Positions 3,755 to 44,588 of a stretch of 64,000 nt of DNA are shown piece after piece. The notes under the pieces are model-generated. The model was not told where the DNA came from, ran no database searches, and worked only from the letters and a program-made list of their open reading frames with translations. Numbering within the stretch: the stretch's first letter is position 1; the number at the start of each line of letters is the position of its first letter. This DNA comes from Enterococcus lacertideformus (GTDB taxonomy: Bacteria > Bacillota > Bacilli > Lactobacillales > Enterococcaceae), in assembly GCA_015680865.1 (NCBI GenBank), contig JADAKE010000016.1:310001-374000 (forward strand), read 5' to 3'. The position numbers and the translations under genes are program-made.

Positions 3755-3935
3755 TAAAAATAAATAGCGCCTGATCTGTAAAAACAGATGACGAGGAAAG
3801 GGTTTATCGAAAAATTCGGCGGATGGCCCTAGGCACTGCAGTCTAAAGAAGATGAAAAAAACGATTTGCAAAGATCGAACAAAAATATATTCATGCAGCT
3901 GGAAACTTTCATAACATTTTTTATAGAAAGTGGGA
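3755..3935 (+). ncRNA. glmS ribozyme/riboswitch (glucosamine-6-phosphate)
   Basis: The leader of glmS contains the core of the self-cleaving glmS ribozyme. The cleavage-site segment AATAGCGCC is at ~3763-3771 (cleavage expected between A3766 and G3767), followed by a short P2-like hairpin (ATCTG/CAGAT). The nearly invariant core comes next: GACGAGGAAAGGGTTTATCG (from ~3790) and TTCGGCGGATG (from ~3817). A GlcN6P-bound ribozyme cleaves its own mRNA and so lowers GlmS when amino sugar is plentiful. The P3/P4 region after the GGATG is less conserved in my reading, so the 3' limit is approximate. Confidence 0.9.
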
Positions 3936-3942
3936 TATTTTT

Positions 3943-5751
3943 ATGTGCGGAATTGTTGGAATGATTGGTTTAGAAAATGTAACACCTGGATTGATAAACG
4001 GTTTAGAAAAATTAGAATATAGAGGGTATGATTCAGCTGGAATTTTTGTCGCAAATCACGAAAATGATCATTTGATTAAAGCACAAGGAAGAATAGCAAA
4101 CTTAAAAGAAAAGCTAACAAATGAAATAATCTGTACAATTGGTATTGGTCATACACGCTGGGCTACCCACGGTGAACCTTCAGAAAAAAATGCGCACCCT
4201 CATACTTCTCAGAGTGGTCGCTTTGTACTCGTTCATAACGGTGTAATCGAGAATTTCGCAGAGCTAAAAAATGATTATTTAGAAAATGATCAATTTTTAG
4301 GAGAAACGGACACAGAGATCATTGTTCATCTCATTGAATTTTTCGCAATGAGTGGGCTTGATACCAAATCTGCTTTTTTAAAGACTTTACACTTAATCAA
4401 AGGTTCCTACGCATTTGCTTTGATTGATCGCAAAATACCAGATAAAATTTTTGTTGCAAAAAATAAAAGTCCGTTGTTAGTAGGTCTAGGTAATAGTTTC
4501 AACGTCATCGCAAGTGATGCAATGGCTATGCTTTCATACACGAAAGAATTCGTCGAGATTGAAGACGGCGAACTGGTCATCGTGACACAAGAAGAAATAT
4601 CTATTGAAACAATTACTGGTGATTCCGTTCAACGAGCATCGTTTGAAGCACAAATTGATGCAGCCGATATCGAAAAAGGGACTTATCCCTATTACATGCT
4701 AAAAGAAATAGATGAACAACCGATCGTTATGAGAAAAATCGTTCAATCTTTTATCAACTCTAATAATCAAGTAATTCTGGATAAACAATTATTAGAAACT
4801 GCCCAAAAAAGTGATCGCATTTATATCGTAGCTTGCGGTACAAGCTATCATGCAGGTTTAGCAGGAAAACCAATTTTAGAACAACTTACCCAGACCCCTG
4901 TAGAAGTACATCTCGCTAGCGAATTTGGTTACAATATGCCTTTGCTTTCAAAGCAACCTTTCTTTATTTTCCTAAGCCAAAGTGGCGAAACCGCAGACAG
5001 CCGGCAAGTGTTAGTAAAAGTCAATGAATTAGATTATCCCTCCTTGACTATCACTAATGTTCCTGGGTCAACTTTATCAAGAGAAGCCTCTTTCACGCTA
5101 CTTTTACACGCTGGACCTGAAATTGCAGTTGCTTCTACAAAGGCTTATACCGCACAAATTGCTGTTTTAGCTGTATTTGCTAAAGTAATTGGCGATAAAA
5201 AAGAAGTCCCTTATGCGCTATCCTTTGATCTTAATCATGAATTAAGTCTTGTTGCAAATGGGATGGAAGAAATGATCTCACAAAAAGATTACTTACAAGA
5301 ACTTGCAGATACGTATTTAACTAACACACGCAATGCCTTTTATATTGGGCGTGCTGCAGATTATACTGTTGCATTGGAAGCTGCTTTAAAGTTGAAAGAA
5401 ATCAGTTATATCCAAGCAGAAGGATTTGCCGCAGGCGAATTGAAACATGGGCCAATTGCATTGATCGAAACTGACACACCTGTCATTGGTATCATCAGCG
5501 AAGAAATAACAGGAACGCATACTCGAGGAAATCTCAAAGAAGTGGAGAGTCGTGGCGCAAGAACACTGATCCTAGCCACAAAAGGTTTAGAAAAGGAAGA
5601 AGACCAACTTATCCTACCTGTTGTCCATCCTTTATTAACACCGTTAGTAACAGTCATTCCTACTCAATTGATCGCTTACTACGCTACCTTATTAAGAGGA
5701 CTAGATGTTGATAAACCTAGAAATTTAGCAAAATCGGTCACCGTCGAATAA
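3943..5751 (+). CDS. glmS: glutamine-fructose-6-phosphate aminotransferase (isomerizing)
   Basis: GlmS makes glucosamine-6-phosphate from fructose-6-phosphate and glutamine, the first committed step to UDP-GlcNAc. The nucleophilic Cys follows the initiator (MCGIVGMIG), with the class II glutamine amidotransferase motifs GHTRWATHG (~72-80) and HNGVIEN. Two SIS domains follow, with CGTSYHAGL (~299) and SQSGETADS (~346) for sugar phosphate binding, and the C-terminus [11 protein letters not shown] is the family's. At 602 residues it is full length. It is controlled by the ribozyme immediately upstream and stands alone on the plus strand. glmM, the next enzyme in the pathway, lies 3 kb away on the other strand. 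Confidence 0.97.
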
Positions 5752-34813: not shown

Positions 34814-34900
34814 CTACTTAATAAACCTTTGAAAAATCAATCTGTAGTAATGCTACTTTTTTACTAAACAAAAATTTTTAACAATTTATTTTTTAGAGCT

Positions 34901-36068
34901 TTACTCTTCTAGTAAAAAACGTTCAAATACATTATTTCCCAAAAAGGTGCCTTTAGGCGTTAAATAGACCCGTTCCGATTCATTCATAAGCAATCCTTCA
35001 CGTTCTAAGTCAATAAGAACTTTCTTGTAAAGCGACTCAATTGTTTGATGGTACCGATGATAAAAATGTTGCTTGGAAAGTCCTTCTTTTTTTCTTAATC
35101 CAAGGAACATTTCTTCTTCGATTTGATTTGTTCTAGAAAGTGTTTCACTTTCTAGAACAGGCAACTCACCTTCTCGTAAAGGACGTAAATAATGTTGGAT
35201 AGGCCCTTTATTTCGATATCGTTTATCCTCAAGATAGCCACTCGCTCCTGCACCAAACCCAAAATAGCGATCATTATTCCAATACATTAAATTGTGTTGC
35301 GACTCATATCCTTCCAAACCAAAATTACTGATTTCGTATTGACGACGACCATGCTTCTCCATTGCTTCTATTGTTTCTTCAAACATTCTCATTTCAGTTT
35401 CTTGATCAGGTAATTGTAATCTTCCTTGCCGCACCCAATTCATGAACATTGTTTTATTTTCCAAAATCAAAGAATACAATGAGTAATGTGGTAAATCCAA
35501 AGCCAAAGCTTTGTTCAGTGTTTCTCTATACCCTTCTAAAGTTTGCCCTGGCAAAGCATAAATTAAATCAATGCTCACATTTTTAAAATTTTCTACTTCT
35601 AAAAAATGCATAGTTTGGTATACATCTTCTGCCGTGTGTTTACGTCCAATTTTTTTCAACAATCGATTATCAAATGTTTGAACTCCCATCGATAAACGAT
35701 TCACACCATAATTTTTCATCACTCGAAGCTTTTCTTGTGTTAAATCTCCCGGATTGGCTTCGACAGTAAATTCTTTTCCTTCTTTAAAAAGGCAAAATAT
35801 TTCTTGTACCCTCTAATAAGTGATCTAATTGTTCTGTAGACAAAGATGTTGGTGTCCCACCACCAATATATAGTGTCTCTAATTCCTTTATTGGATGTTG
35901 CTCAATCATGAGCTGCATTTCTTTCAAAAGCATCTCGACATATTCATCCACTGGTTGTCCTTCTATAAACACTTTATTAAAGTCACAGTAATAACAGATA
36001 TGTTCGCAAAATGGGATATGGATGTACGCAGAAACCTTGTTTTCTACGGAATTATTTGTTTCTTTCAT
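34901..36068 (-). pseudogene. hemW: HemW-like radical SAM protein, frameshifted
   Basis: The 5' part (MKETNNSVENKVSAYIHIPF) has the radical SAM cluster motif CEHICYYCDF (CxxxCxxC form: Cys-x3-Cys-x2-Cys) and GGGTPTSLS, then stops at 35784 after RNILPF. One extra T in a five-T run (A run 35786-35790 on +) throws the frame. Skipping it gives FKEGKEFTVEANPGDLTQEKL and continues into VNRLSMGVQTFDNRLLKKIGR...SLYSLILE to the end at 34901, including the HemW tail. HemW is a heme chaperone related to oxygen-independent coproporphyrinogen oxidase; since enterococci do not make heme, loss could be tolerated. Assembly error is the main alternative. Confidence 0.85.
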
Positions 36069-36151: not shown

Positions 36152-36362
36152 TTAAGCTCAAAAAATACAAAAATATGAAAAGCTATTTTCGATTTTTTGC
36201 TCTTAATTCTTGGAGCAGTTCATCGCTTTCACTACCTCTTGATAAACAGTGTTCCAGTGCTAGCTCCTTGAAATAAGCCATAAATTTCTAAAACATGAAA
36301 AGCTATTTGAGAAATTTCTTTCTTATTGTCATCAGAGCTACCCAGAACTCTCACAACCTCTC
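36152..36362. repeat. two palindrome-family units (copies 5 and 6) in the hemW-integrase gap
   Basis: First unit 36152-36207: TTAAGCTCAAAAAAT...ATTTTTTGCTCTTAA with the core AATATGAAAAGCTATTTTC. Second unit 36271-36326: AAATAAGCCATAAATTTC...GAAATTTCTTTCTTATT with ACATGAAAAGCTATTT; this is part of the 36229-36362 segment shared with 30534-30665. No gene is seen in 36069-36399. Confidence 0.65.
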
Positions 36363-36399
36363 ATATACGCATACTAAACGTATTTGGTAAACAAATCCA

Positions 36400-37780
36400 C
36401 TAAAAAATCCAAGAATCAACTTCTTGGATCACTTTTTCTTTAGCAACTGTTGTTGCTTGGTTATAAATTTCTAAGGTTGTTTTCATATCTGAATGGCCGA
36501 CACGATCCATAATGGCTTTGATGGGAACGCCTGCTTCAGCTAAGAGAGAAATATGTGTGTAGCGAAAAGTATAAGTAGTAACAGGCTTATTAAACTCAGG
36601 ATATTTTTCTCTTAAGATCTCTTTCACACATTTCACTGGCTTTTTATTGTTACCACGTCCATTCATGAACTCATTAAACGAATGATAAACGACTGGCGTA
36701 CCATTTTGGGTCTGGAAAATCGTAGTGGAGAAAAGAAAGTTTTTGGAAGCCCTCACTTTTTTATGATAAGAAGTCTGACTTTTTCGTTGATACGTCTTTA
36801 TAAAAGTTCCTTTTTCTCGTTGCCTCATTTCCTTTTGCCTCACTTCATTTATTTGAATCCTATTTCGAATAATCGCAAGCGAATGAGCATACAAATCGAT
36901 TTCTCGAATGGAGGAAATGGTCTTTGGTGGATTGCGTATGTATTTTGCTCAATCGTTCTACCAGCTGCCACTACGCCTTCATCGATCACCAACTTCTTCG
37001 ACTGAAAATCCACTTTCTCAATCGTCAACGCACTTAACTCACCAATCCTTAAGCCGTTCCGAATCAGAAATTCTGCCATGTCCAAGTACAGTTTTCCCAT
37101 CTGATTGATTTCATGATTACTTTCATATTTCTCATCGATTGCTTGTAAAAGTATACGGATTTCCTCTTTTTCTAGAAACTTCTTTTTCCTACGCTGAATC
37201 GCTGGAATTTTTCGATCATTTGGAATCTTTAAAACAATCTTATTCAAGTCAAACAAGACCAAATCATGCCGATAGCCATAAACTAAAATTTGTTTAAGAA
37301 GAGAACGAATCTTTTCCAATGTAGCCTTTTCTAGAAGGGTATTAGTTTGTTTGGAACAAATCACCAGGATATCCGCCCAAATCCTTTCTACCAATAAAGG
37401 AGTCAGCTGTTGTAGTCGCAGATCATCCGTAAAATACGGTTTGAGGTATCGACGAAGAATCTCTTTTTGGTAATGAACCGTCGTTTGACGAACGGTTGGC
37501 GACCAAGCTTTTAACCAAAGAGTGGTCAATTCACCAAATGTCTCACATTGATTTACATCAGAAAATCTTGTGTATTTTTTGAACTCTTTTTCAATCTTTC
37601 TTTCAGATAACGTAACGCCTGTTTTTCACTCTTAAACCCTTTAGTTTTCCAATTAACACTTTTCTTTCTTATTTTTTCTACAAAAAGATCATAGAAAACT
37701 TGAAAAGTACGTAAGTAACTTTTCTTATCAATCGTTGTATAAGAACTTCTTAAATAATACGTATAATCAAATGACTTCAC
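36400..37780 (-). pseudogene. tyrosine-recombinase integrase, broken in two places
   Basis: Three consecutive frames rebuild one phage/ICE-type integrase. The 5' frame (GTG at 37780 after GGAGGG; KSFDYTYYLRSSYTT...) is an arm-binding domain with WKTKGFKSEKQALRYL. A one-base shift near 37548 (DFL/VNQCETFGELTTLW) moves to the core-binding and catalytic start (LIRNGLRIGELSALTIEKVD, with the first catalytic Arg). A second shift near 36930 (NTYA/NPPKTISSIREIDLY) moves to the C-terminal part with the remaining residues: YTFRYTHISLLAEAG (HxxR degenerate), GHSDMKTTLEIYNQAT with His and the Tyr nucleophile. Inactive as read. It marks one end of the accessory island next to hemW. Confidence 0.85.
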
Positions 37781-37819
37781 TTTCCCTCCTGTAAATAAAA
37801 AACACACACGAACAAGGTG

Positions 37820-38090
37820 TTAAAATCCTCGTTCGTATGCTTTCCATTTTAAAAATTTGATAAATCCTTCTAAATTGATCCAAACTAAACGCTGGGACAG
37901 ATTAAGTATATACTCATGGAATTCTGGACTATCTCGCATCTCCATCAGCCAGACATTCAAGGTACCCTTCTTTAACCCTTATCCTCTACGTCAGGAATAG
38001 GACTCTTAGCTAATCGCTCGATTACGTGCCAGAAACCAACTTTTTTTACCAATTTTTCGTTCCTTCACTACTGCAGCAATAGTCTCATTT
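37820..38090 (-). pseudogene. excisionase-like remnant upstream of the integrase
   Basis: In one minus frame LKKGTLNVWLMEMRDSPEFH...EYILNLSQRLVWINLEGF ends with FLKWKAYERGF and a stop at 37820. Shifted frames further upstream give KNETIAAVVKERKIGKKSWF. Size, basic character and place just 5' of the integrase suit an excisionase of an integrative element, but the family is inferred from context. At least one frameshift and a stop are present. The rest of the gap to 38585 is AT-rich with no gene. Confidence 0.4.
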
Positions 38091-38585
38091 TTTTCATTGT
38101 TTTACATTTATTTTTTGTGTCTCCAATTTAACTGAAAATGCCAAGTAATATAACACATCAATTGTTTTACCACACACCAAACAATAGTTTTTTTAATTCC
38201 GAATCAATCGCATTTCTACTACTTGAATTCTTTTATTTTATTTATTATATCTAATGCTTGGTTTCTTATACTTTATGTAGTTACTTCAATACTATAAATT
38301 TTTGTCGTTTCCTGATTTTATTTATACGTAAAGTATTATTATTTAATAACCCATAATGAGCCGTTCCATTTGTTACTTCTTCAATAATTATTCCTTTTTA
38401 TTTAATCCAATCTCTTAGTATTAAAAAATTCATGCTTATAAAGATTCTCTCTGATTTAAACTCTGCCCTTTTTTATTATTAGTGAAATTTTTTAAATAAA
38501 TTTCGTAATTTTATCGTTTCATTTACTTTATCCAAGCTTCAATTCTTGCTATACTAAAAGCGATTGAAATTTAGAGGTGATATTT

Positions 38586-39337
38586 ATGAAAGTATACTAT
38601 ATTGAAGATAACATTTTTCATCAGGAAGAATTCCGCAAAGAATATTGCAAGAGTACCAATTTGACAGCGGTTTCACTTACTATCCAATTGCCTTATCAAT
38701 TAGAAAAATTTTATGATTAACTTGATTTTATGCCGATTCAGGATTCAGATATTTTTATTATTGATATTGAATTAAATCAGTATCACTCTGGAATTGACTT
38801 TAGTAAAAAGATCCGCCAAAGAAATAACTGTTGTTATATATTTTTTTTATCAAATGATACTACCAAAGGAATAGAGATCATTAATCATAACATCCGAGCC
38901 AACAAATATTATAGCAAAAAAGACCTCACAGAAGCCGTGAACGGATTAGAAGAGTTGTTGTTTAAACTACCCCATGAACTACAAACACAAAGCAAACTGA
39001 TAAAAATTGAATCCCTTTCCAAAATTTATTTGATTGATCCTAAAGAAGTAAACTACTTAAGTAAGGTAATTAGTGCTCGTTCGACTATTGAATTTTTTTG
39101 TCAATCAGAGTTTTTTTGATTCATGGGAAAATTGAAGAGCTCAAACAGACCTTTCAAAAATTTCATTATTTCAATGATCTGAAAAGCTATTCAATCAACC
39201 CAGCGAATATCAAGTTAGTTGATAAAAAGAATAACGAAATTATTTTTAAAAACGATGACACTTTACTACTTAGCCGTAGAAGTATAAAAAAATTAGTTGA
39301 TTATATGGAACAACTTGAAAAAGAAAAGTTATTATAA
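38586..39337 (+). pseudogene. LytTR-type response regulator, broken
   Basis: The ATG at 38586 follows AGAGGTGATATTT and opens MKVYYIEDNIFHQEEFRKEY, a receiver-domain start with the acidic ED pair. An in-frame TAA at 38718-38720 interrupts it. The same frame resumes with DSDIFIIDIELNQYHSGIDF (phospho-acceptor Asp region), KYYSKKDL (Lys of the receiver) and a LytTR-like DNA-binding start. A frameshift in the seven-T run at 39111-39117 then moves to GKIEELKQTFQKFHYF...LLLSRRSIKKLVDYM. This is an AgrA/ComE-like regulator, the kind that controls peptide or bacteriocin genes. Its kinase-like partner is convergent. Confidence 0.8.
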
Positions 39338-39346
39338 TAGAGGATT

Positions 39347-39400
39347 GACGATAAGATAATAAGAAAGCTTGGATAAAAAATAGGTTCCTTTTGTCCAAGC
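39347..39400. terminator. terminator between convergent regulator and kinase remnants
   Basis: AAGCTTGGATAAAA...TTTTGTCCAAGC forms a stem in the 160-base gap between the two stops. Confidence 0.5.
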
Positions 39401-39500
39401 CTTTAAATCCAGATAAATGAAAAGCGCTAATCTATTTTCACCTTCTTCTTTTTTAGTTCACTCAATTTATTTCTTCCATTCTTATGCTTTCATACAATAG

Positions 39501-40770
39501 TCAAGTTGTTCTCTCTTTTTTCAAACTCACTATACAGTAAAATCGTTGTTCTTGTTTATCATACTTTAAATTGAGTCCCAGCTACTCATTTACTTCAACG
39601 ATTTTTTTGATATTATATAATCCAATTCCCTGACTATCTTTTTGTCTAGTCGTACCTTTTTTAAGTAATTCTGCTAAATTATGCCCAGTATTTTTACTTG
39701 GATTACTAAACTCAAAATAAAAACAATCCCTTAAATTTTCTACTTTGATCAAAATTTCTTTTTTACCTTTGGCTCCATGATCATTATAGTGTATCAACGC
39801 ATTTTCAGTAATATTCGTGAACAAGCGGATCATATCATACGAATTTATTGATAACTTGGGAATGATATTGTTTACTTGAATACTATACGGAATTTCACGT
39901 TCTTCCATCTGCTTGATGAATTTTACAAAAATCCCTTGTAAGAGAGGATCGTAGATTTTTTGTAGCTTCATATGTAGCGCATCATTCAGCTGTGTCTCAA
40001 AAAATTCTTTTTCGTAGCCTACCACTGTTTCCAACTCTTGGTTTGTTTGATTTTTTTTCAAAAGATCTTCCAAAACACCAATATAGTTTTTATAATCATG
40101 TCGGAATTCTTCTAACTTTTGGTAATATTCCTCATTTTTTTTTCATACTTTCCATATAAATCACGTAATGTTCTTCTTTTTTTTCATTTAACAAAATCAA
40201 TACCATCAATAAACCATAAAAAAAGTTGGTTGTAATTAAAATAAAAGAAGTTAAGATATAATCGAGTGAATGAAGTGGAAAAAGCATATGATACCCAAAA
40301 AATGAAACAAAGAGAAAAATAATTAATAAGGTAGAAAAAATCCGTTTTTTTCTATAGGCATAAAGATAAGTAGTGATCCGATAGGTTTGATCTAATTTTC
40401 TTATTCCTACTAATATCACCAATAAACAGAGGATTTCCGGTATCAAATTAGTCACCAGATGAAAATCTTCTAAAAATCTCGGAATCTCTATTGTAAAAAA
40501 AACAGAAATCCCAATAAAATTCACACAAAATGTATTTAACAAAAACACAATAAATGTATTTTTGGTTTCATAGAAAATATATGCTGCATTATAAAAATAG
40601 AGTAACAGACAGAAAAAAGGTGTCCATTCACTCAACCACAAATTAAGCATGATTAAGCATAATCGTACCAAAAAATTACTTGCAACTATCTTCTTTGTAA
40701 ACAAAATAAACCCTGTTAGTGCAAAATTCAGATGAAGCAATAGGATATAAATAACCAATGCCATCAACAA
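39501..40770 (-). pseudogene. AgrC/ComD-type (HPK10) sensor kinase, broken
   Basis: The first 212 residues are six or so membrane helices (ALVIYILLLHLNFALTGFIL...). The frame ends in MKKK at a nine-T run (40135-40143). With one base fewer it continues KNEEYYQKLEEFRHDYKNYI, the HPK10 phospho-acceptor box, and on into the ATPase domain (LFTNITENALIHYND N-box; QGIGLYNIKKIVE G-box). An in-frame TAG (~39583) then cuts GLNLKYDKQEQRFYCIV, with the natural end at 39501. Two lesions, so inactive. It would sense a peptide pheromone; it faces the response regulator remnant, an unusual arrangement. Confidence 0.8.
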
Positions 40771-41569
40771 ATCCCCCTAAACAATCTACTCTTAGTCTCC
40801 AGTAAAACTTCTTTTTATTTTATGATCCCTCACATAAAATGATTCAACGAGAGACTTCTCATATAAGATAACATGAATGAAAAAAATGGGATATAAAATT
40901 ATAAATTAAATCTAATATATGGGAAAAATTTAATTATTGTTTATTAAAAAAAAGTAAAAACGTATCCATCCTCATAAATGATTTTGGTCCGTTTTTTTGA
41001 GAATAAATAATGATTGACAATGAATCATTCTCTAATAATGTTTACTGCTAAAAAGCTTTATACTAATTTTTGCACTCTAATTATCTTTTTTGTTACATGT
41101 TGTTGTCCCTTAAAAGAATTCCTTCAAAGACTTCTTTCGGCATCTTAAAATGGAAGAGGACATTTTTTGCTTGCTTCTTAACTACCCTATTGAATCAGTG
41201 GCTAAAACATCACTGAACATGTATTTAGTAAATGAATTCTTTTTGAAAGTTTATTGGTTATAAGCGATCACATCATTTGTGTTGATCCTGTATTATTTCT
41301 CGCTATGGCGAAAACGCTATCTTTTTCTCCGACATTTGATAAATGAATCAATAAAACTCGTGTTTTATCCAGTTTACCATCAAATCAAAAATAAGAAACA
41401 TCTTTATCTGTTTATCTTTTAGGCATACTCGCACTCAGAGACGGATTCAGATAAATCTGCCTAGATGTTCCCTGTATTTACATAGGATCCCCCAAAATCC
41501 TAACGTACCTATGCCTAGAATGGTAACTATGCTTTTTTTATCCTCATCATTACTCATCAGTTTGAATTG
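40771..41569. other. AT-rich gap without a recognisable gene
   Basis: All frames on both strands are broken within ~40 codons. No membrane, transporter or protease signature could be put together. It is probably decayed accessory DNA. Confidence 0.5.
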
Positions 41570-42028
41570 CTATAAAAGGTCATGTAATCGTTGTTCTATA
41601 TATTCTTTTGCTTGCGCAAGGTTTGTGTTTCTCCCTTAATTACCTCTAGCCATGTTTCTTGACCCTGTAGATGTTTAATAGTCATGAATGATGAAGCTTC
41701 ATTTTTGTCCAAAGCAAATCCATAAGAAGATGTTTTAACACTTACATTAACAGCACTCTTTCCTATATCTACCCTTCTTTTAGTTCACTACTCCCGACTA
41801 TACGCTACTTTCATATTTAACTGTAACTTGAACGTATGATTTGTTATTCATATCTATATAGATTTTTTGGAGATAGTTCTTGTGACCCATGACAAGTTTT
41901 GAGTTATAGGTAATGTGTAATACATCAGTGTTTTCTATTGGATTATTAAAATTTTCAAACCTCACTTGATCAATTAGCTTAGCTGACCTATCCGTTTCAT
42001 CTTGTTTTCTCAAATTAATTTTGGCCAT
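41570..42028 (-). pseudogene. unrecognised decayed gene
   Basis: An intact frame (MAKINLRKQDETDRSAKLID..., 76 residues) ends at 41798, but the neighbouring frame downstream reads VDIGKSAVNVSVKTSSYGFA...LDKNEASSFMTIKHLQGQETW, then after another shift AQAKEYIEQRLHDLL with a stop at 41570. Together they suggest a ~150-residue soluble protein with at least two frameshifts. I do not recognise it. No convincing Shine-Dalgarno precedes the first ATG. Confidence 0.4.
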
Positions 42029-42519
42029 ATTTACTTCATGTATATTAACAATTTTTTCTACATGAACTACCTCTTCTTTTACATTAATTAATAAATCATT
42101 AAAAAAGTAAGAACATTAAAGCAGCTTTTTTCTTTACTCCTATTATAACAAATCCCCCCTTTTTATTTTCCTCTTTATTGGATAATTCTATTTTACTTAT
42201 ATTCAATCTAAAATAATTAATTTGAAACCGCTTAACTTTACAATTTTTACCTTTATGAATAGAATAGCTAAATAAAGGTAGCAATTTTCTCTTTATCGGA
42301 TTATTTACTTTTTGAGTTTTTTTACTTAGATTATTACTCGTCAATTCGTGAATCGAACTTATTGAAACTTCTCCTTTACTCCTGATAGTATTTTTATACT
42401 ACCATCATTCGTTGATTTTAGGATTTCATTCTCTGCCTTCTTTTCAAACAAAGAAAAATTGATCTTTTTGCTCTTCTTTCTAATATAAAAAAAGAGACGT
42501 TTCCATTTATTCTTTGAAC

Positions 42520-42562
42520 CGACCCCAAAAAGTTAGACCAAAAATCTAATTTTTTGGGGTCG
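42520..42562. repeat. hairpin with CGACCCCAAAAAGTTAGA ends
   Basis: CGACCCCAAAAAGTTAGA and TCTAATTTTTTGGGGTCG form an 18-base stem with one mismatch around a 7-base loop. It lies 38 bases past the PqqD-like stop, so it may be that gene's terminator. The GACCCCAAAAAGTTAGA wording resembles ends of IS3-type elements, but no transposase is near. The rest of 42029-42519 shows no credible gene. Confidence 0.6.
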
Positions 42563-42599
42563 CTACACTTTGATAACAGAAATAACTCTTTTTTACTTT

Positions 42600-42881
42600 T
42601 CAATATTTGTTCGTTTCATCCTCTAGCAAAAAAATTTTATTGTTTATTAGATCAGCAATAAATTCTTCAATGAAAATCTTCTTTTCTTCATTTGTATACT
42701 CTTCTGTATTAGCAAAAGCACTGATTACTCTTTCTTTGATGTTATTTATTTCTATTCGCTTTTTTAATAATTCAAAAATATAGATGGATACTTCGTTGTC
42801 TAATATATAAACTTCGTTATTTAATGACAAATAAATTTTCTTTCCCAATCTCTCATAAGCCAATTCTCCGTTTAATCTCAT
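42600..42881 (-). CDS. PqqD-like RiPP recognition protein
   Basis: A 93-residue protein whose pattern fits the PqqD/RRE fold. An N-terminal beta hairpin (LAYERLGKKIYLSLNNEVYI) is followed by the LDNEVSIYIFELLK helix, a winged-helix-like middle and a C-terminal helix plus strand (IEEFIADLINNKIFLLED). PqqD-like proteins bind the leader of a ribosomal peptide and present it to the modifying enzyme. AAAGGAGCCTTAAAGG precedes the ATG. A short CxC peptide gene lies 560 bases upstream on the same strand. No modifying enzyme (radical SAM, cyclase) is visible in the window, so the system may be incomplete or act with an enzyme elsewhere. Assignment is by pattern. Confidence 0.6.
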   Translation of the reverse strand: MRLNGELAYERLGKKIYLSLNNEVYILDNEVSIYIFELLKKRIEINNIKERVISAFANTEEYTNEEKKIFIEEFIADLINNKIFLLEDETNKY

Positions 42882-43355
42882 CCTTTAAGGCTCCTTTATC
42901 TTGCTTCTATTTTCCTTCTACAATAAGACACATGTTATATTTTATCTTTTTAACTATGGTCATTTTGATTGAACAACTTTTGGACTATAGATCTGTATCA
43001 TCTTTAATCATTGGTCTTAGTAGTTTTTACGTAATAATAAACTCTTGTCAGATGATATTAATGTGTAAAAATGAAAAAAATGATCCAAGATGCATTTACT
43101 TTTGACTGTTTGCTATTTAGGGATTTATCTAGAAACAGTTGCAAAACTTTATTACTTATTTCTTCCAGTAATTAAGCGTATTTTTTAACTAGATTCGCTC
43201 CGATTCTTTTTCGAAATCACTATCCAGCTCTTACAAAATATTATGTATTGTATATTTGTCAAGGTGAAATTAGGCCTACAGATTTTCCTTGATTTTTCAT
43301 TTTCTCATCCCCTCTTTTTACTGAAAAAATAAAGGCGTATTTTTTATTATTCTTT
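42882..43355 (-). other. gap between peptide and PqqD-like gene with a broken small frame
   Basis: A ribosome site AGAGGGGATGAGAAA and ATG at ~43300 open MKNQGKSVGLISP and then a stop; the following bases continue in broken frames (QIYNTYYFVRAG-like). This may be the ruined start of the missing maturation gene, but nothing conserved remains to name it. A plus-strand open frame here (42824-43105) looks incidental. Confidence 0.35.
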
Positions 43356-43420
43356 ATTAGGAAAACAAAGCTGTCATTGACTAAGCAGGGGAGTTTTGAT
43401 TGACAACTTTGTTTCCTAAT
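43356..43420 (-). terminator. long hairpin just after the peptide gene (attenuator-like)
   Basis: ATTAGGAAAACAAAGCTGTCA pairs imperfectly with TGACAACTTTGTTTCCTAAT (arms of ~20 bases) 18 bases downstream of the peptide stop. A stem in this place often lets much precursor and little downstream mRNA be made in peptide operons. Confidence 0.6.
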
Positions 43421-43438
43421 TATTACTGGAAGACTCTA

Positions 43439-43525
43439 TTAAGAACCGTTACCAATAAGTAATCCACAAGAACATGGGGATGTGTTACTTCCAGAAACTT
43501 TTTTTAGTACGGGTTTTTTAAACAG
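43439..43525 (-). CDS. putative 28-residue CxC precursor peptide (RiPP-like)
   Basis: Downstream of GGGAGGAG on the minus strand a 28-codon frame reads LFKKPVLKK, VSGSNTSP, CSCGLLIGNGS and stop. The only in-frame codon at good spacing from the ribosome site is CTG (43523-43525), or the ATT just before it, so the start is non-standard or mutated from ATG. The basic F-x-x-P-x-L leader-like beginning, a Ser/Thr hinge and a Cys-x-Cys-Gly core suit a modified peptide. It has a near-perfect promoter upstream, a hairpin just downstream and a PqqD-like gene on the same strand. No leader cleavage or ring chemistry can be deduced. It could also be a chance frame. Confidence 0.4.
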   Translation of the reverse strand: MFKKPVLKKVSGSNTSPCSCGLLIGNGS

Positions 43526-43590
43526 AATAGTCTCCTCCCATCAATTTTTAGGAAAACGTTTCAAAATATTCATTTTTCCTATAATTCAGT

Positions 43591-43621
43591 ATAAACTTTT
43601 AGAAAAATTATTGTCAACGAG
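43591..43621 (-). promoter_or_regulatory. strong predicted promoter of the peptide gene
   Basis: On the minus strand TTGACA, an 18-base spacer and TATACT lie ~65 bases upstream of the peptide frame. The leader also holds a small stem (TAGGAAAA...TTTTCCTA, ~43549-43582) just before the ribosome site. No terminal enzyme gene was found in the 1-kb gap 43622-44588, which is otherwise broken in all frames. Confidence 0.6.
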
Positions 43622-44402
43622 GTTTATCATTAAAAATTGTTGAAACATGAATAATAAAAATAAAAATTTAAAAATAATGAGAATTTATCTATGAAGGATT
43701 TTTATTAACTGAAAAATTATTTAACAACCAAAAAAATTTATAGATAACTATACCTATTGAATGAAGCTATTTTTTCATCCATAATTTAATATACTTATAC
43801 TTTATAAAATAGGCTTAATTCTTTACCAATATGAAGCTTACTGTTTCACAGCACAAGATATTTTTTAATTTCAAGCCATTTATTATAATTGTTTCTATCA
43901 CTTAGAAGTGATATGTTGAAAGGCTACTTGTTTAATGCAAGTATTAGCTACTCAGCTTGACATTACGGCTCTAGTAATTAGAAATCATCTCCATGAAAGG
44001 AAATTAAAATAGATAAAGGTCGGTTGGAGGAAAATGGGAATTCTCAGAACAAATCTGATTTGATTTTCTGTACGGAGACACCAAGTCAAGTAGAGTAAAA
44101 AATAAAATTTAATGCACCCATCACATTAATATTTTCATTCAATTCTCCCAACAAAATAAGTGAACTAAAGGAAAAAATTCTTAATTATAATTTAGAAGTA
44201 TATGCAAATAAAAAGATAAATTGAGCCATACACGCATTTCAAAGACAATAAATGCGAAATTCTAATGGGTGGAAATTTTGACTACGTGCTAAGTTTTGGG
44301 AATTGGATCAATGACTTGCAACAGTAACCCACGATCTTATTCAAATCAATTTAATTTGCTTTGGTTACATCTGTTGCAAATATCGTAAAATAGACAAAAA
44401 AC

Positions 44403-44446
44403 GTGAATCATTCGAAAATAGGAGAAACTACTTTCGAGTAATTCAC
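44403..44446 (-). terminator. palindrome after gdh, probable terminator (palindrome-like)
   Basis: GTGAATCATTCGAAAATAG and CTACTTTCGAGTAATTCAC form the stem; on the minus strand GTTTTTTG follows. It is 140 bases past the gdh stop. Confidence 0.6.
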
Positions 44447-44588
44447 TTAATGTTCGCGCGCTTTCCTTGTACTTTAATTTCGTATGAAGTTTTTCGATAT
44501 TGCAAGTATTTGCTGAGATTTCTCGACTGATTGTTGCTTTCATGACCTCTTATTTTAAAACTAGATAAAGGTCTTTCATTTGGCTATC

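Follow-up and report, generated by a model that had tools for sequence, protein, structure and literature searches.

Among the systems closest to the locus described here, the discrete sactipeptide RRE StsC binds its precursor through a KPxWxxP motif, and the leaders of lasso peptides carry YxxP (available part of PMC12710340). RRE-like genes without a nearby maturase are usually dismissed as false positives; discrete lasso-type cases of this sort are discussed in the portion of PMC7470986 that was accessible. In the literature covered, largely without subscription papers and with sources available in part (PMC8172795, PMC13361665, PMC7470986, PMC12710340), we found neither an enterococcal cassette of such a kind nor a RiPP recognition gene that had survived the loss of its maturase.

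The locus lies in the window, i.e. the whole stretch of 64,000 nucleotides of Enterococcus lacertideformus DNA that was analysed. An initial annotation, made from the sequence alone, had described there a TTGACA-N18-TATACT promoter, a leader stem, a ribosome site, a 28-codon frame, a hairpin and a 93-aa ORF, and had proposed a RiPP cassette with a missing or decayed enzyme. Each of these features was located where it had been placed, and the proposal is borne out by a radical SAM relic present in the window. We give a probability of about 0.8 to the reading that the locus is what erosion has left of a radical SAM RiPP cassette of the Sts kind, in which the PqqD gene seems to have been kept by selection after the loss of the enzyme. 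The producer locus is dead and its RRE probably retained. As a biosynthetic locus it is ordinary; what is new is the cassette variant, which combines a precursor, an Sts-like maturase and a lasso-like RRE in enterococci. The interest of the locus itself is that the RRE seems to have outlasted its maturase.

The cassette of related enterococci

A scan of genome contigs gave 47 pattern-matching stretches, three of which belong to relatives: E. ratti (L001), E. villorum (L002) and Enterococcus sp. 10A9_DIV0425 (L003). In these three the gene order is 28-aa precursor, radical SAM, PqqD, and the precursors are 28-aa ORFs starting with ATG (MFVKPVLKKVSGSILSPCSCGLLIGNGS, MFVKPVLKKVSGRRLSLCSCGSLIGNGS and MFKKPELKKIVGAYLAPCSCGLFTGQGS, respectively). 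A 28-aa precursor with a leader F-x-K-P-x-L-K-K and a tail C-x-C-G...G-x-G-S is found in these three and in four other Enterococcaceae genomes. The alignment of the precursors (7 rows) has 13 invariant positions; KPxL is found in 7/7 rows, the W and the second P of KPxWxxP being absent. The likeness of F-x-x-P-x-L to the leaders of RRE-dependent peptides, pointed out in the initial annotation, fits: the fold nearest to the 93-aa protein is that of a leader-bound lasso RRE, and a related sactipeptide RRE recognizes a KPxWxxP leader (PMC12710340, in part). The frame is conserved at the codon level beside radical SAM/SPASM and PqqD genes (E. ratti, E. villorum, Enterococcus sp. 10A9), which is where the annotation had proposed to look for it. 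The frame, the promoter hexamers and the 5' stem stand in the same place in relatives, and the MFE of the hairpin is below that of shuffles, which is more than chance. A chance short frame next to an unrelated winged-helix gene would agree with the absence of a usual start in the window and with the weak scores of the family models. But the same frame stands with an ATG beside radical SAM and PqqD genes in seven enterococcal genomes, and this explanation, already refuted by these conserved relatives, has practically no chance of being right.

The maturase was searched for in 105 Enterococcaceae genomes (E <= 1e-45), with 7 matches, and all seven genomes carry the precursor (identical in G031 and G032). 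The maturase has no internal stops in G002 (E. villorum), G003, G031, G032 and G033, has two stops in G001 (E. ratti) and is partial in G029. The breaks in E. ratti and G029 go with a constrained codon pattern and look recent, and other clusters contain intact versions. No further maturase at E <= 1e-60 came from a draw of 395 genomes of the order. Among 398 genomes of the class, seven besides G001 have a maturase at 36-37% identity. Five of these seven Bacilli loci were examined: a small C-x-C ORF stands just ahead of the maturase in 5/5, and a weak PqqD-like ORF behind it in 5/5 (hmmsearch E 0.0009-0.11). Their maturases resemble a Brevibacillus laterosporus protein.

Radical_SAM and SPASM domains are above the Pfam cut-offs in the 3/3 enterococcal copies scanned (L002, L003, L021). 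The best NCBIfam model for the maturases is StsB (NF045574), with 205.6, 201.8 and 163.8 bits (the last for a truncated frame), below its cut-off of 625. Structurally, the AF2 model of P0015, which represents the E. villorum cluster, comes closest to CteB (pLDDT 76; E 1.4e-17), followed by SuiB and SkfB. A radical SAM enzyme, a cyclodehydratase or a lasso enzyme had been named as possible partners; the first holds, and the other two are dropped on the listed ORFs of the relatives, in which no lasso enzyme (B2 protease, cyclase) was noticed. Some disparities appear between maturase sequences: in the alignment, P0015 carries Tyr in place of a SPASM cysteine that is present in the L002 copy; the E. 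ratti maturase (L001, 8767-9999) has its two stops in DSM 15687 while the cluster P0017, labelled E. ratti, has 400 aa, i.e. a within-species variation; the 358-aa E. durans protein P0027 shares 37% identity with the maturase and has no listed SPASM domain.

A discrete RRE is encoded together with precursor and maturase in L001-L003 and L019-L022. For ribF (102 matching of the 105 Enterococcaceae genomes) the nearest genomes to the window are E. villorum (G002, 82%), E. ratti (G001, 81%) and G029 (80%), and the window's species is therefore probably different from all three. In the window, L001, L021 and L022 the cassette is flanked by ribF/SDR, and the opposite flank holds hemW in the window, L001 and L021; the contig of E. 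villorum starts with the SDR gene. The intact cassettes of G003, G031 and G032 occupy other places in their genomes. In G031, G032 and G033 an ABC transporter of ~525-530 aa and an HTH_17 protein of ~150 aa are encoded divergently from precursor, maturase and PqqD. The HTH gene, intact homologues of which match PF12728, is kept in E. ratti, E. villorum and G029; the transporter has no match in the slices of these three genomes.

While the homology, the gene order, the fold and the relic state are shown by the analysis, for the chemistry, the export and the role of the hairpin we infer the following. In intact relatives a single promoter would serve the precursor, an intercistronic hairpin, the radical SAM/SPASM maturase and the discrete PqqD-type RRE, the HTH_17 gene and, in G031-G033, the ABC transporter being read divergently. 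The hairpin may set the precursor:enzyme ratio. The RRE would grip the leader F-x-K-P-x-L-K-K and present the tail C-x-C-G...G-x-G-S to the maturase. This enzyme probably joins both cysteines to backbone carbons as sactionine-like thioethers; after this cross-linking the leader would be removed and the peptide exported. With a precursor of 28 aa, a maturase of 405 aa and an RRE of 93 aa, this very small enterococcal radical SAM cassette is a ready experimental system: E. villorum and others carry intact copies, and it lies close to the curated Sts models without falling inside them.

The eroded locus of the window

Table 1. Features of the cassette remainder and their positions in the window.
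Feature	Position	Strand	Evidence
Promoter-like TTGACA-N18-TATACT	43588..43617	-	Sequence; hexamers kept in upstream regions of relatives
Stem TAGGAAAA...TTTTCCTA, presumed 5' end of the transcript	43549..43581	-	Sequence; similar inverted repeat upstream in relatives
Ribosome-site-like GGGAGGAG	43532..43539	-	Sequence
28-codon RiPP precursor frame (leader FKKPVLKK, tail CSCGLLIGNGS)	43439..43525	-	Precursor alignment; relatives start with ATG
Conserved hairpin, loop AACTCCCCT	43356..43420	-	MFE folds, shuffles, relatives
Radical SAM/SPASM maturase relic, residues 2-103 in three frames	43007..43302	-	tblastn, alignment, flat codon-position pattern
Discrete PqqD/RRE protein, 93 aa, open frame	42600..42881	-	ORF, homologues, AF2 model, codon pattern
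Relic of the divergent HTH_17 (MerR-like) cassette gene	43926..44330	+	tblastn 37.6% over 141 aa; six gap runs; flat codon pattern

The promoter-like sequence (TTGACA at 43617-43612, a spacer of 18 nt, TATACT at 43593-43588) has 11/12 matches and ranks first among 10 promoter-like sites in 1.2 kb, where shuffles give 6.7 sites on average. TATACT is found in 8/8 upstream regions and TTGACA in 7/8. The upstream region of the window is not specially conserved: its private changes are 15/71, versus 12/83 for E. ratti, 15/86 for G029 and 22/93 for E. villorum. In the precursor frame a CTG takes the start position ahead of the 27 codons that begin at 43522; it is itself preceded by an ATT, with no ATG, GTG or TTG; the absence of a Met start had been correctly noted. 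Its dN/dS, 0.51 versus E. ratti and 0.78 versus E. villorum, is not low and comes from few changes.

The maturase relic (~296 nt) is N-terminal, the remainder of the gene being deleted ahead of PqqD. It corresponds to what had been annotated as a broken frame at ~42.9-43.3 kb, where tblastn recovers a radical SAM N-terminus across three frames. At the radical SAM motif the three CxxxCxxC cysteines of the relatives are replaced, and the relic does not form an open frame. This loss, a large deletion with many substitutions, is not explicable as a single-base assembly error. The transporter has no tblastn match in the window between 35000 and 46600. No product is therefore expected in cis: the maturase is deleted and dead, only a relic of the HTH gene is left, no exporter was found and the precursor has no usual start.

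The PqqD gene has its own AAAGGAG ribosome site (42897-42891). Its protein has no match to PF05402 or to another relevant family in Pfam, and the G033 homologue scores 17.5 bits with PF05402, below the gathering score of 23.4. NCBIfam gives two weak RRE matches, ScmD (E 0.003) and lasso PqqD (E 0.004). A protein search returned 14 sequences including the window's own, the others being 57-80% identical over the aligned parts; two of the 14, from E. ratti and Enterococcus villorum, are labelled PqqD family. By sequence, the PDB holds no relative at E <= 1. The AF2 model, built from 11 sequences (pLDDT 83), is a bbb-aaa winged helix (E8-12 E15-20 E23-27 H30-40 H45-55 H64-80). With Foldseek, ranks 1-6 are lasso B1-type RREs with leader (5v1u, 5v1v, 6jx3; best E 3.5e-4), TbiB1 with its leader (5v1u/5v1v) being the closest structure, and Xanthomonas PqqD (3g2b) appears only at rank 44 (E 1.1). 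Since the six best PDB matches are lasso RREs and Xanthomonas PqqD ranks so low, the protein as modelled is RRE-like and nearer to discrete lasso-type RREs. The RRE fold given by AF2 and Foldseek for 42600-42881 upholds the PqqD-like assignment proposed initially.

The WxL/DUF916, kinase and regulator frames downstream are broken as well. WxL/DUF916 remnants occupy 41038-42130 (-); in E. villorum and G029 such genes stand between PqqD and the AgrC-like kinase. The AgrC-like kinase and the LytTR regulator were considered as partners of the peptide and rejected: no such pair is in the ORF lists of the 18-kb slices that hold the fuller G031-G033 cassettes, so that a link of the two to the WxL genes is more likely. 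Seven conserved genes were compared: infB, rbfA, truB, ribF, hrcA and the SDR gene are whole, and hemW (34889-36068, -) has one frameshift near 35.79 kb. Some single-base breaks of the region could thus be assembly errors. A tyrosine-integrase-like gene in two overlapping frames (36400-37529, -) adjoins hemW and is perhaps the trace of a mobile element. A plasmid origin was rejected, since 36300-44580 has no close match among plasmids and tblastn of PqqD gave none there either, and so was a phage origin, with no match among viral contigs. Far from the locus, a glmS ribozyme (Rfam RF00234, 83 bits) lies at 3755-3902 (+), upstream of a 602-aa ORF at 3943.

Selection on the PqqD gene, its orphan copies and the hairpin

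We counted the changes private to the window where E. villorum, E. ratti and G029 agree, at codon positions 1, 2 and 3. They are 23/64, 21/79 and 13/41 in the maturase relic and 20/102, 23/117 and 14/59 in the HTH relic; these relic counts are small and derive from one lineage and a non-codon alignment. Change is roughly equal at all codon positions, i.e. the two relics show no sign of coding constraint on the window branch. In PqqD the changes are mostly at third positions (5/50, 3/70 and 9/34). For positions 1+2 together, PqqD (8/120) differs from the maturase relic (44/143, p = 7e-7) and from the HTH relic (43/219, p = 0.0013). The precursor has 1/24, 1/24 and 0/15, one of its two changes being the start codon, and it differs from the maturase relic too (2/48 vs 44/143, p = 7e-5). 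The kinase (32/309, 17/353, 58/225) and the regulator (16/198, 11/222, 44/152) have a constrained pattern, thus their breaks are recent or spurious. The dN/dS of PqqD is 0.21 for window-villorum, 0.22 for window-ratti and 0.28 for ratti-villorum. Together, the codon-position counts and dN/dS suggest that PqqD, unlike the maturase, was kept for most of the branch. Purifying selection on it after the loss of the maturase is supported by these counts, i.e. by sequence comparison rather than by experiment.

The ribF-hemW slices of 11 further Enterococcaceae genomes, two of them shortened by contig ends, were analyzed. PqqD homology is present in 4/11 (G003, G031, G032, G035) and the HTH gene in 6/11 (the same four plus G026 and G028); the maturase is in 0/11, and tblastn gave no convincing precursor. 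PqqD is an open frame of 85 aa in G031 and G032, where the maturase and a readable precursor are gone. A leader-like stretch and a frame-shifted cysteine stretch, seen by eye at the orphan site, suggest a former precursor. The orphan dN/dS is 0.26 for G031-G032 (dS 0.38), 0.21 for G031-G035 and 0.42 for G032-G035. The gene is broken in G035 (stop at codon 3) and in G003 (in pieces), so PqqD is not always kept. In G035 (L059) the promoter-leader and a hairpin arm are missing relative to G031/G032, apparently between short direct repeats.

These broken copies are what would be expected if nothing in the locus were functional any more, PqqD being still open as a small target whose decay lags behind. 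The loss of the precursor start and the broken HTH, WxL/DUF916, kinase, regulator and integrase frames around it agree with such a plain relic. Against it, on the same branch PqqD has far fewer changes at positions 1+2 than either relic (above), and the dN of the window PqqD is no larger than that between species with other maturase states. We regard the plain relic as a serious possibility, somewhat short of an even chance. Alternatively the RRE, and perhaps the peptide too, could still be working with a maturase from another part of the genome. Use in trans is conceivable in G031 and G032, because both hold a full cassette elsewhere in addition to their orphan PqqD. But the window peptide has no usual start, and in E. 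ratti (G001) the search at E <= 1e-10 gave a single further match, to 69 residues of a different protein; we consider use in trans quite improbable.

The hairpin starts 18 nt past the stop codon of the precursor, and its MFE is 4.9 sd under that of 200 mononucleotide shuffles. A long stem with the AACTCCCCT loop occurs once per slice in six loci: the window, E. ratti, E. villorum, G029 and the orphan sites of G031 and G032. Seven stem columns have changed on both sides with pairing kept, the pairs being read from separate MFE folds without slid or shuffled controls and G031/G032 being close kin. The DNA of G031 and G032 agrees at 220/255 positions in PqqD, at 131/139 in the hairpin region and at 78/85 in the promoter-leader, versus 254/343 in the spacer, although the precursor is unreadable there. 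A CTCCCCC loop is present in the intact G033 cassette too. These data are consistent with a regulatory RNA comprising the promoter, the 5' stem and the hairpin (whose loop is C-rich), in which the peptide would be incidental. However, the loop is not found in the intact G031, G032 and G003 cassettes, and no Rfam family reaches its gathering score in the region (four weak matches lie far below). That the RNA is what was kept is therefore unlikely in our estimation, if less so than use in trans. No intrinsic terminator was found in 42500-43700. A dispersed repeat was rejected, with no second near-identical copy in five genomes; this search is weak since it did not recover E. ratti's own hairpin. 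Pairing of the loop with the maturase ribosome site, examined by eye, is inconsistent among species and was discarded. At the orphan site (L058, L061) the conserved hairpin is followed by another strong one, GTGAGGCAAAT...ATTTGCCTCAC.

Returning to an RRE kept by selection, its present role might be non-biosynthetic, e.g. binding of another peptide or regulation, with the precursor transcript kept as well in another lineage; we propose this only tentatively and hold it to be a minority possibility. If true, the locus would be an example of a RiPP cassette converted to something else. With a probable RRE here and its enzyme still visible as a fossil, an own function of orphan RREs becomes testable.

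Comparison with described systems

At the level of the class, the cassette, as a putative sactipeptide locus, resembles the enteropeptins of Enterococcus cecorum, which are enterococcal radical SAM sactipeptides; they belong to the KGR subfamily and carry a thiomorpholine ring, and no sign of a relation beyond the class was seen (PMC13361665, in its available part). CteB, the SCIFF thioether maturase (5wgg/5why), is the best structural match of the P0015 model, with 21% identity, but acts on another precursor class. Streptosactin (GggA/GggB) of Streptococcus is comparable as a small sactipeptide of Lactobacillales made by a SPASM radical SAM enzyme, with short rings between Cys and nearby residues. 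It differs by a described protease and Rgg/SHP regulation, and a separate RRE is not named in the accessible parts of the sources (PMC8172795, PMC13361665), the comparison being with this description.

The StsA/StsB/StsC systems of Actinomycetota (NF045558, NF045574) share with the enterococcal cassette a short precursor, a radical SAM/SPASM enzyme for which StsB is the best model, and a separate RRE. Here the host belongs to Bacillota, the fuller clusters have an ABC transporter and an HTH gene, and the scores are far under the cut-offs: with the StsA model (NF045558) the precursors of G033 and L024 obtain 16.0 and 16.2 of 42 bits, and that of E. villorum gives none. The leaders differ as well, the KPxWxxP of Sts (as given in the available part of its source) being replaced by K-P-x-L-K-K, with an invariant K-P-x-L, that lacks the W and the second P. 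The likeness to Sts is thus real in architecture, while the StsA and StsB scores, below their cut-offs, leave the cassette outside the curated family.

For the RRE itself the nearest solved fold is that of the lasso B1 proteins (TbiB1, 5v1u/5v1v; 6jx3), with TM 0.73-0.83 and 12-18% identity over the matches. Among the ORFs listed beside the relatives a radical SAM enzyme is present and no lasso enzyme was noticed, and where lasso leaders have YxxP the enterococcal leader has FxKP.
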